Shown piece by piece: positions 10,181 to 13,710 of a DNA stretch of 22,227 nt (position 1 is its first letter; the number at the start of each line of letters is the position of its first letter). The notes below the pieces were generated by a model that did no database searches, was not told where the DNA came from, and saw only the letters and a list, made by a program, of their open reading frames with translations. The stretch comes from Clostridiales bacterium. GTDB lineage: Bacteria; Bacillota_A; Clostridia; Christensenellales; Christensenellaceae. The position numbers were made by a program, and so were the translations under genes. The stretch spans positions 39,708 through 61,934 of the forward strand of contig QANA01000018.1 in NCBI GenBank assembly GCA_003149735.1. The letters are read 5' to 3'.

Positions 10181-10209
10181 ATTATATAGAAAAACGGCTA
10201 TGCTGTCAA
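10181..10209 (-). promoter_or_regulatory. Consensus sigma-A promoter of rpmH-rnpA-yidD-yidC-jag
   Basis: On the minus strand TTGACA (complement of 10204-10209), 17 bases, then TATAAT (complement of 10181-10186) forms a perfect consensus promoter about 85 bp upstream of rpmH. A DnaA-box-like 9-mer (TTATCAACG, 10231-10239) lies 21 bp further upstream. Confidence 0.88.
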
Positions 10210-10379
10210 CAAAAAACCGCATTTCAAAGCTTATCAACGATATATTATACCTGCTTTGGCCGATTTTTCAATGCTTTTCTCCACTTCTCCGGTAAAAATA
10301 TTATTCTTTTTCACCTTTCCATTTCAAAAAAACAATCATCCGCAAAAAACGATTTTCTTTGTGGATAAATAACATTGGG

Positions 10380-10421
10380 TTATCAACAAATGTTGATAAC
10401 TTTTAATGCATTTGTTGATAA
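10380..10421. repeat. DnaA-box module 1 (TTATCAACA type)
   Basis: Boxes are at 10380-10388 (forward), 10391-10399 (inverted, 2-bp gap) and 10413-10421 (inverted, 13-bp gap). The first 41 bp match module 3 except for two bases. Confidence 0.9.
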
Positions 10422-10464
10422 TTCTATTCATATAGCCATTTTTTACTCCTTTTATTTTGTTGAG

Positions 10465-10506
10465 TTATCCACAATTTGTGGATATTTTCCGTAGATTTGT
10501 GGATAA
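10465..10506. repeat. DnaA-box module 2 (TTATCCACA type)
   Basis: Boxes are at 10465-10473 (forward), 10477-10485 (inverted, last base differs) and 10498-10506 (inverted). Gaps are 3 and 12 bp, the same as module 4. Confidence 0.9.
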
Positions 10507-10634
10507 CCTGTTTTTTGGTAAAACTGAAAATGGAATCCTTTTCCTGTTTGAAATATCCGCACAAAATATCTATAAATCTCAAAAAAATTCGTTTCTTTTT
10601 TTTCGCCGCAACTATGTTGACAGTTTTTCAAAAG

Positions 10635-10676
10635 TTATCAACATTTGTTGATAACTTTTAATGCATTTGTTGATAC
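10635..10676. repeat. DnaA-box module 3 (TTATCAACA type)
   Basis: Boxes are at 10635-10643 (forward), 10646-10654 (inverted) and 10668-10676 (inverted, last base differs). Gaps are 2 and 13 bp, and the 13-bp spacer is identical to that of module 1. Confidence 0.9.
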
Positions 10677-10718
10677 TTTTTCACTTTTCCCATAAAACTG
10701 TGTTTCTTACAAAAAAAG

Positions 10719-10760
10719 TTATCCACAAAATGTGGATAACTTTTTTTAGTTTGTTGATAA
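10719..10760. repeat. DnaA-box module 4 (mixed boxes)
   Basis: Boxes are at 10719-10727 (TTATCCACA, forward), 10731-10739 (TGTGGATAA) and 10752-10760 (TGTTGATAA). Gaps are 3 and 12 bp. This is the module nearest the dnaA promoter, ending 65 bp before its -35 region, so it is a candidate for DnaA autoregulation. Confidence 0.9.
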
Positions 10761-10825
10761 CTTGTCCATTTCCTGTGCAATTTTCTTTTTTTCCACAATC
10801 TTTGCGAATATTCGATTCTATCGCT

Positions 10826-10853
10826 TTGATGACATCCTTATTTATGATATAAT
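10826..10853 (+). promoter_or_regulatory. Probable dnaA promoter
   Basis: TTGATG (10826-10831), a 16-bp spacer and a perfect TATAAT (10848-10853) lie 55 bp upstream of the dnaA start. The leader then contains CTCCTT (10865-10870), complementary to the dnaA ribosome site AAGGAG (10895-10900). Confidence 0.65.
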
Positions 10854-12281: not shown

Positions 12282-12600
12282 AAAGTTATCCACAGTTTGT
12301 GGACAACTGTGTCAATTCTCTGTCCAACTTTTGTGGAGTGGTTGTTTATAAACAGGCGTTTTTTTGCAGATTTCAATGGGAAACGGAAAATTTCTTTGCG
12401 TTATTTTCTGTAAAATTACACAAAACTCTGTTTAAAATGCACAGAGCATCCATAGAGTTTCCACCGGATTTTCACATAGCCCGGCGCGATTTTTTCCTTT
12501 TCTGATGCTTATGCACAAAGTTATCAACATTATCAACATTACTACTGCTACTACTGCTAATTACTATTTTTTTATCATTCCATAAAAAGGAGTAGATATT
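12282..12600. other. oriC: oriC, right part: DnaA boxes and unwinding region between dnaA and dnaN
   Basis: This 319-bp AT-rich gap has a forward TTATCCACA (12286-12294) facing an inverted near-box TGTGGACAA (12298-12306) across 3 bp, the same inverted pair as in upstream modules 2 and 4. A 12-bp palindrome TGTTTATAAACA lies at 12343-12354. Three close boxes follow: TTATGCACA (12509-12517), TTATCAACA (12521-12529) and TTATCAACA (12530-12538). A trinucleotide-repeat stretch then leads into a T-run. The dnaN ribosome site AAGGAG (12587-12592) ends the region. The arrangement matches the DNA-melting half of bipartite Bacillota origins. Confidence 0.88.
12539..12577. promoter_or_regulatory. DnaA-trio-like origin unwinding element
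   Basis: Directly after the last of three clustered DnaA boxes comes ACTACTGCTACTACTGCTAA, then TTACTA and an AT-rich tract. On the complementary strand read 3' to 5' this gives successive GAT/GAC triplets, the pattern of the DnaA-trio element described in Bacillus subtilis. Spacing and order (boxes, trios, AT-rich) agree with a site where DnaA loads onto one strand. Confidence 0.8.
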
Positions 12601-13710
12601 ATGAAGTTTATCTGCAATAAGGAAGAACTTATCAAAGGAATCAACATCGTCATGCGAGCAGCCTACAGCAAATACCAAAAATCCATTTTGGAATGCATCC
12701 ATATTAAAACAGAAGAACAAACGCTGCTGCTAGATGCATTTGATATGACGACAGCAATTAAAACAAGTGTTTATGCGCAAGTGGAAGAAGCCGGGGAAAC
12801 GGCAATTCCAGCACGCATTTTATATGATATCGTAAATAAATTTCCCGCCGGAGAAATTGTCTTTGAAAGAGAGGATGCAGCGATTCGCATCAGTGGGGCA
12901 AATTCCAGTGCAACCCTTTCGGAAATGGATGCACAGCAATTTCCTGCTTTTCCCGTCTATGAAGGCAATGCAGATCATCAGATTCAAATTTCACGGCAAA
13001 CTTTTAAAGATATGGTGGAAAAAACGGCATTTTCTGCTTATACGGGAGAAGATCGCCCTATTTTCACAGGATTGCTGTTAGAAACAAATCCGCAAGACGG
13101 TACTTTAAGCGTTGTGGGAATCGATGGAATCCGCATGGCAAAAAAAATGAGCCCGCTTTCCTGTAAAAGCCATATCAAAGCGATCGTTCCAGCAAAAATG
13201 CTGAAAGAAGCTTCCCGCATTCTTGGAGACGGCGAAGAAGAAATCTCCCTTTGTTTTACAGAACATGCATGTTTCCTGAAATGTGAAGAAATAGAAATTT
13301 TCACCCGCCTGTTGGATGGCGAATTCATTAATTATCAGGCTCTGATTCCTGCACAGTATAAGACAAGAGTAAAAGTCAATACCGGTATGTTTGAGCGCAG
13401 TTTGGAACTGATGATGGTGTTGGCTCGGGAAGATAGTTCCAATCTTATCCGCATGACAATTGAAAATTCCTGTATTGATCTGCAATCTGTTTCCGAATAT
13501 GGAAAAGCACAGGATACTCTCAGCGTGGAAATGCAGGGAGAAGTTTTAAAAATTGCATTCAATGCAAAATACCTTTTGGATGTATTCAAAGTTATTGAAG
13601 AAGAAGAGGTATATATGGAATTTACCGGTCGTTTGCAGGCTTGTGTTATCAAACCGGTAGCGGGAGATGCATTCCTTTATCTGGTTGTGCCCGTTAATAT
13701 TGCGGAATAA
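12601..13710 (+). CDS. dnaN: DNA polymerase III beta subunit (sliding clamp)
   Basis: DnaN is the ring-shaped clamp that tethers DNA polymerase III to DNA and serves as a docking platform for repair and replication factors. The 369-residue length is standard. The sequence aligns in spirit with three repeated clamp domains, including the start MKFICNKEELIKGI, ALIPAQYKTRVKVN in the middle and a C-terminal AFLYLVVPVNI tail that forms part of the peptide-binding pocket. AAGGAG lies eight bases before the ATG. The gene lies directly after the oriC unwinding element and 15 bp before recF. Confidence 0.98.
   Translation: MKFICNKEELIKGINIVMRAAYSKYQKSILECIHIKTEEQTLLLDAFDMTTAIKTSVYAQVEEAGETAIPARILYDIVNKFPAGEIVFEREDAAIRISGANSSATLSEMDAQQFPAFPVYEGNADHQIQISRQTFKDMVEKTAFSAYTGEDRPIFTGLLLETNPQDGTLSVVGIDGIRMAKKMSPLSCKSHIKAIVPAKMLKEASRILGDGEEEISLCFTEHACFLKCEEIEIFTRLLDGEFINYQALIPAQYKTRVKVNTGMFERSLELMMVLAREDSSNLIRMTIENSCIDLQSVSEYGKAQDTLSVEMQGEVLKIAFNAKYLLDVFKVIEEEEVYMEFTGRLQACVIKPVAGDAFLYLVVPVNIAE

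Follow-up and report, generated by a model that had tools for sequence, protein, structure and literature searches.

Do the DnaA boxes upstream of dnaA in this chromosome form an ordinary cluster, or are they built from a repeated unit that serves DnaA assembly at the origin? The question is raised by a stretch of 22,227 nucleotides from a Clostridiales bacterium (hereafter the window), in which an earlier note had described four three-box modules at a pitch of about 85 bp, which would put them all on the same face of the DNA. From their sequences, we take the leftward genes to be, in order, parB/parA-like, rsmG, gidA, trmE, jag, yidC, rnpA and rpmH, and the rightward genes that follow the modules to be dnaA, dnaN, recF, gyrB and gyrA. 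Two ParB-like ORFs on the minus strand (58-915 and 1781-2362) lie on either side of the parA-like gene, and the second may, by its sequence, be a relative of the Noc type; within the parA-like gene (1518-1559) a forward and an inverted DnaA-like box lie 33 bp apart (the second TGATCCACA), which may be chance. A search of a plasmid collection with the window gave no match.

DnaA-box clusters are present on both sides of dnaA, between rpmH and dnaA and between dnaA and dnaN, and there is a switch in strand composition at the locus, with the GC skew changing sign between about 11 and 13 kb of the window, as expected of a bipartite origin of the Firmicutes type. In the dnaA-dnaN interval (12509-12566), TTATGCACA and two abutting copies of TTATCAACA are followed by a run of TAC/TGC trinucleotides, such that co-oriented boxes adjoin DnaA-trios at the probable unwinding site (12521-12566). 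A box cluster between rpmH and dnaA (oriC1/incAB), and a box-plus-trio layout between dnaA and dnaN, are likewise reported for B. subtilis and C. difficile in the cited parts of PMC7561715, PMC10721633 and PMC13220808, and the downstream layout thus places the modules in what would be the upstream half of a bipartite origin.

Table 1. Features of the origin locus, in positions of the window.
Feature	Position	Strand	Remarks
Lead inverted DnaA box, TTATCCACA	10360..10368	-	20 bp before module 1
Module 1, type A	10380..10421	+	boxes 10380-10388 (+), 10391-10399 (-), 10413-10421 (-)
Module 2, type B	10465..10506	+	boxes 10465-10473 (+), 10477-10485 (-), 10498-10506 (-)
Conserved ATATCCGCACAAA element	10553..10565	+	contains weak DnaA box ATATCCGCA; 82 bp before module 3
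Weak counterpart of lead box, CTGTCAACA	10615-10623		20 bp before module 3
Module 3, type A	10635..10676	+	boxes 10635-10643 (+), 10646-10654 (-), 10668-10676 (-, GTATCAACA)
Module 4, type B	10719..10760	+	boxes 10719-10727 (+), 10731-10739 (-), 10752-10760 (-)
Single DnaA-box-like TTTTCCACA	10789..10797	+	37 bp downstream of where the last box starts
Probable dnaA promoter	10826..10853	+	TTGATG, 16 nt, TATAAT, preceded by TG
dnaA	10908..12281	+	ATG start used in searches; the mechanical ORF begins upstream at TTG
Head-to-head DnaA pair directly 3' of dnaA	12286..12306	+	12286 (+), 12298 (-, one mismatch); 12-bp offset
Three co-oriented boxes	12509..12538	+	12509, 12521, 12530; last two abut; beside the probable unwinding element
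DnaA-trio-like stretch, TTACTACTGCTACTACTGCTAATTACTA	12539..12566	+	probable unwinding site; motif as in the cited parts of PMC10721633 and PMC7561715
dnaN (presumed from gene order and sequence)	12601..13710	+	

Each of the four modules upstream of dnaA spans 42 bp and consists of a forward box followed by two inverted ones (Table 1). The forward box and the first inverted one, separated by 2 or 3 bp, form a head-to-head pair, and relative to the forward box the inverted boxes begin at 11/33, 12/33, 11/33 and 12/33 bp in modules 1 to 4; the +0/-11/-33 arrangement is referred to as type A and +0/-12/-33 as type B. Successive module starts are separated by 85, 170 and 84 bp. In order, the boxes are TTATCAACA three times in module 1, TTATCCACA, ATATCCACA and TTATCCACA in module 2, TTATCAACA, TTATCAACA and GTATCAACA in module 3, and TTATCCACA, TTATCCACA and TTATCAACA in module 4. 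The coordinates, length, offsets and steps described earlier were all reproduced, and the box listing agrees with the claim that modules 2 and 4 contain mainly TTATCCACA boxes. Such regularity is far beyond what arises at random: when these boxes, 16 under a loose definition, were placed over their own span 200,000 times, 199,368 placements contained no triple, 628 contained one, 4 contained two and none contained more, compared to the four observed. Modules 1 and 3 are identical in 39 out of 42 positions and modules 2 and 4 in 31 out of 42. As the 42-43 bp gaps that follow modules 1 and 3 are dissimilar (by eye), a fresh tandem duplication of a 255-bp block was ruled out.

Relatives were sought among 101 genomes around G001 (the genome of locus L001); 98 of these had a DnaA match, and dnaA loci were taken from 70 of the 98. 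Named relatives include an 'uncultured Eubacteriales' (L001; 88% DnaA identity), a 'Clostridia bacterium' (72%) and two entries labeled 'Christensenellaceae bacterium' (60% and 50%), so that the source is probably an uncultured clostridial bacterium. Together with the window, six genomes, with DnaA identities to the window of 88, 88, 77, 72, 70 and 61%, form a clade with support of 100/99 in a midpoint-rooted tree, in which the branching of the window, L083, L084 and L085 is an open fork. Modules are found upstream of dnaA in all six of these genomes, the closest among those examined. Two A-B pairs are present in the window, L083 and L084, hence the alternation of A and B, and one pair in L085, L086, L087 and L088. 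By parsimony, a single A-B pair is probably ancestral, which the window lineage carries twice. The four-module layout is therefore a feature of three of the seven genomes and not a general one, and neither is the 85-bp pitch fixed: the A-to-B steps are 85 and 84 bp in the window, 84 and 86 in L083, 84 and 85 in L084, 88 in both L085 and L086, 85 in L087 and 74 in L088, and the B-to-A step between pairs, 170 bp in the window, is 191 bp in L083 and 182 bp in L084, its two closest relatives.

Conservation is stronger within the modules. From the box map we picked 20 modules in the seven genomes, and in 13 of the 20 all three boxes have at most one mismatch to TTATCMACA and lie at exact 11/33 or 12/33 offsets. 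The head-to-head pair is kept at 11 bp in all ten A modules and at 12 bp in eight of the ten B modules, type B being present in all seven genomes; the exceptions are the first B module of L083, with a degenerate middle box, and the second of L084, at 11/32. Nine out of ten B modules but only five out of ten A modules retain the third box at 33 bp (it is absent in L086 and L088, and has three mismatches in L087 and in the second A module of L084), which counts against the unit as first described. The expectation that the offsets would be kept while the surroundings change was mostly borne out, by the exact offsets and the varying inter-module gaps. It failed for the A spacer, which reads CTTTTAnTGCA exactly in four of the ten A modules and is one letter off in two more, and thus does not drift freely. 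The two A modules of L083 agree in 42 out of 42 positions and the gaps after them are dissimilar, a pattern that would fit conversion or selection on the module as a block.

A displaced arrangement is that of G006 (L087/L134), where extra DNA on both sides of dnaA puts the module starts 725 and 640 bp before dnaA, and dnaN starts about 1.64 kb past the end of dnaA. The pair has nevertheless kept its head-to-head offsets and its 85-bp step, with a degenerate third box in the A module (three mismatches). The extra DNA (L134), which separates dnaA from the modules on one side and from dnaN on the other, is GC-richer and contains repeated stretches (by eye). A doubled box is present in the dnaA-dnaN interval of the window and five relatives, its second unit carrying one mismatch in L083 and L084, and is followed by trio-like repeats that are clear in the window, L083, L084 and L088 and weaker in L085 and L086. 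No exact doubled box was found in this interval of L087, where trio-like letters and one box occur about 50 and 180 bp before dnaN. Each of the six genomes that have doubled boxes at the unwinding site also has the C or A variant used there in its modules.

The specificity of DnaA itself was considered as a cause of the TTATCAACA box, which is often used in the clade. All seven clade DnaAs have Asn in the motif NHSTV, while Asp is found in 125 of 132 typed non-clade DnaAs (the tally of box variants includes 10 loci without a recognizable motif); the equivalent residue in E. coli, Asp433, contacts bases according to the relevant passage of PMC7561715. We found no clean support for an effect of the Asp-to-Asn change, as low-GC genomes with Asp use TTATCAACA too, and low GC explains part of the preference. 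Where the upstream GC content is below 0.31, 17 Asp genomes have 18 C boxes and 17 A boxes in total, and 5 clade genomes have 14 C boxes and 35 A boxes. L083, with Asn, has C boxes alone, and A boxes are missing from two non-clade Asn genomes.

The suggestion that all modules face the same side of the DNA holds in part. At a helical repeat of 10.6 bp, the inverted boxes of the window are strongly phased (R = 0.98, n = 9), and R is 0.88 in L084, 0.67 in L083, 0.45 in L085, 0.51 in L086, 0.50 in L087 and 0.93 in L088. The combined value for inverted boxes, 26.7, exceeds the maximum of 20.3 in 1000 random placements that position boxes singly, meaning that part of the signal is the fixed internal offset. 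For module starts, one in 2000 jittered sets scored as high, where this null and the former treat the seven genomes as independent and they are kin. The forward boxes show no significant phasing (186 out of 1000 random sets as high). Steps of 74, 84-86, 170 and 191 bp are near whole turns and those of 88 and 182 bp are not, the 88-bp A-to-B step (two genomes) corresponding to 8.3 turns of 10.6 bp and the 182-bp B-to-A step to 17.2. A common face is evident for the inverted boxes of the window.

Several other elements are found between rpmH and dnaA (Table 1). The ATATCCGCACAAA element occupies a slot of the ladder without a module, about one module pitch before module 3; in five of the seven genomes (window, L083-L086), a copy with 12-13 out of 13 matches precedes the proximal A module by 80-82 bp, where the match of the window is so by construction and the best of 1400 simple shuffles scored 11. 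A missing fifth module at 10550 was ruled out, since this slot carries a different conserved element. In the position equivalent to TTTTCCACA, TTTTTCACA is found at 36 bp in L083 and 37 bp in L084. The -10 stretch of the probable dnaA promoter is conserved in the six aligned genomes (L087 left out). A perfect match to a sigma-70-type promoter (TTGACA, 17, TATAAT) on the minus strand at 10181-10209 is directed toward rpmH. In the oriC loci of the clade, AAAG often precedes DnaA boxes (G at -1 in 48 and A at -2 in 52 out of 75 boxes), and as a consequence some head-to-head pairs are longer palindromes.

Outside the clade, the triple was absent from the dnaA loci scanned, which lends support to the earlier reading. 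Using loose boxes in both orientations, at most 900 bp upstream and at most 500 bp downstream of dnaA where present, we found no 11/33 or 12/33 triple in 142 non-clade dnaA loci and 14 in the seven clade loci at the same settings, in a set from which L002 was left out (it looks like the contig of L103), in which some loci (L003, L044, L092 and L109, for example) have little upstream DNA, and in which the 79 named loci (L002-L080) were found by short DnaA patterns, are not a random sample and may overlap with the unnamed ones. Cousins from the same family have a (+,-,-) triple upstream of dnaA like the modules, but with a 34-bp outer frame: the middle box is at 22 bp in five loci (+0/-22/-34, L093-L097) and at 12 bp in L089 (+0/-12/-34). 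When 248 whole genomes of the order were searched with a strict pattern, seven matched, and the reversed-pattern control gave none in any genome. Five matches are at oriC (clade genomes G001, G003, G004 and G005, and family member G009) and two are elsewhere (G030 and G057); the clade genomes G002 and G006 had no match to the strict pattern. Among 101 genomes around G030, five matched the A triple with three mismatches allowed, two of them exactly (G030 and G057). A search of 11 genomes for the head-to-head core of 20 bp, with its 2-bp gap, found it in six, and these are exactly the clade genomes.

The two non-clade sites, L183 (G057:C18, about 75779) and L184 (G030:C14, about 13798), have the exact A geometry (+0/-11/-33) and further boxes at -74 and +103, spaced identically in both. 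Both adjoin a small, seemingly homologous lipoprotein gene; the gene on the other side differs and dnaA is on other contigs. These sites look like a chromosomal DnaA cluster. The head-to-head core also occurs away from oriC in four clade genomes, G004, G003, G005 and G002 (L130, L131, L132 and L133), each with one extra palindrome that lies 14-54 bp beyond the 3' end of a GNAT-like gene common to all four (373-375 aa, identified by eye); no palindrome past this gene was found in G001 and G006. A class-wide pattern with a gap of N{12,13}, able to find type B and not type A, matched four of 391 genomes, with none in the reversed control: G001 at oriC, and G342, G252 and G303 elsewhere (L116, L117 and L118), where the B geometry (12/33) is not beside dnaA as judged from the ORFs; L118 lies before a pheS-like ORF, with further DnaA boxes. 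Type B spacing is thus found, if rarely, in other members of the class, whether through function or by chance.

Could the modules be an ordinary DnaA-box cluster, in which a general spacing of 11-12, 22 or 33 bp and shared descent within a small clade produce the regularity, and which does not act as a unit? Among 103 other dnaA loci the most frequent offsets are likewise 11, 12 and 22 bp, with 33-34 bp present, the triples of the family cousins resemble the modules, and the unit is confined to seven related genomes with half of the A third boxes lost. We nevertheless consider this unlikely, given that the offsets persist down to 61% DnaA identity while the inter-module gaps vary, that identical A modules in L083 are followed by dissimilar gaps, that the pair of G006 kept its step despite an altered distance from dnaA, and that two other genomes of the order have the exact A geometry outside the origin.

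Similarly, we doubt that autoregulation of dnaA or titration of DnaA, rather than origin opening, is the main role of the modules. They do lie upstream of the probable dnaA promoter, and for B. subtilis the cited part of PMC13220808 reports that DnaA occupies boxes in the promoter region of dnaA and represses the operon. Direct occlusion of the promoter is unlikely, because 65 bp separate the last module from the first promoter hexamer. Both roles are compatible with an assembly function, and may be added to it.

Among the systems known to control DnaA, the DARS loci of E. coli resemble the modules. In MG1655, at the presumed locations of DARS1 (bioD-uvrB) and DARS2 (near mutH), the triples taken as their cores are both +0/-14/-26; like the modules, they have three boxes at a fixed spacing in a (+,-,-) pattern. 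In the passages cited from PMC5742627, box I is opposite to boxes II and III, spacing is equal at both loci, ADP-DnaA is preferred, and DARS2 requires IHF and Fis. That the modules act like DARS within the origin, with a pair and a third box promoting nucleotide exchange on ADP-DnaA, could draw on this likeness and on the A geometry at non-origin sites in two genomes of the order. It appears improbable to us: the spacing is 11-12/33 instead of 14/26, and the modules sit at oriC, whereas DARS lie away from it. Because spacing and place differ, we do not assign the modules to DARS, though the topology is shared. The E. coli datA locus is also a spaced DnaA-box cluster that regulates DnaA, but its essential boxes have one direction and it needs an IHF site (according to the cited part of PMC5742627), in contrast to the mixed box directions of the modules.

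A broader version of this idea, which we put forward as a long shot, is that the (+,-,-) triple is a portable DnaA-assembly element of some Clostridia, in which the third, phased box would sense or reset the nucleotide state of DnaA as in DARS, with tandem copies in oriC1 of this clade and a shared chromosomal place in G030 and G057. If true, the origin would contain its own DARS-like control element in the form of this triple.

Finally, it is highly improbable that the palindromes serve in intrinsic termination of transcription or are bound by a dimeric protein other than DnaA: modules 2 and 4 do score as terminator-like (two found, 0.2 expected), module 4 with 17 pairs of which only 4 are G-C, but the boxes fit the DnaA consensus and share their variants with the unwinding-site boxes, the third box is outside the palindrome, and no transcript would be expected to end between the divergent rpmH and dnaA.

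Overall, our analyses point to the modules being, with good probability, a clade-specific scaffold for DnaA assembly in the oriC1/incAB half of a bipartite origin. Directly visible in the sequence are gene order, unwinding motifs, boxes, the conservation of spacing and the phasing in the window; for DnaA binding, cooperativity, looping and enhancement we infer from reports on B. subtilis and C. difficile. In C. difficile, unwinding requires both oriC1 and oriC2 (as stated in PMC7561715), and for B. subtilis the cited part of PMC13220808 describes looping and a possible enhancer role for oriC1. The unit would be the 42-bp triple, in which the head-to-head pair is followed by a third box at three turns from the first; two such triples, one of type A and one of type B, at a distance of about 85 bp would make up a pair, present twice in the window lineage. 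DnaA may fill the head-to-head pairs first, after which protomers could join via the inverted boxes, on one helical face in the window, and extend to the third boxes to give an ordered assembly. The assembly at oriC1 would then loop over dnaA to the doubled boxes downstream, and in this way may help to load DnaA on the DnaA-trios, where the strands open.

A repeated three-box unit with its own spacing would be a variant on the known bipartite oriC. The oriC1 regions of C. difficile and other clostridia, in the passages that describe them, have 9-19 putative boxes in clusters, in contrast to the repeated 42-bp composite unit of the window. We found no description of a repeated three-box origin unit in the open-access literature searched, which is weak evidence of novelty. 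Box arrangements differ widely among bacterial origins, and these differences are described as unexplained in structure or function in the cited part of PMC5043019. The clade varies in box variant, GC content, number of modules and distance to dnaA, yet mostly keeps the 42-bp spacing rule, and it thus provides a natural alignment for reading the geometry of DnaA assembly.
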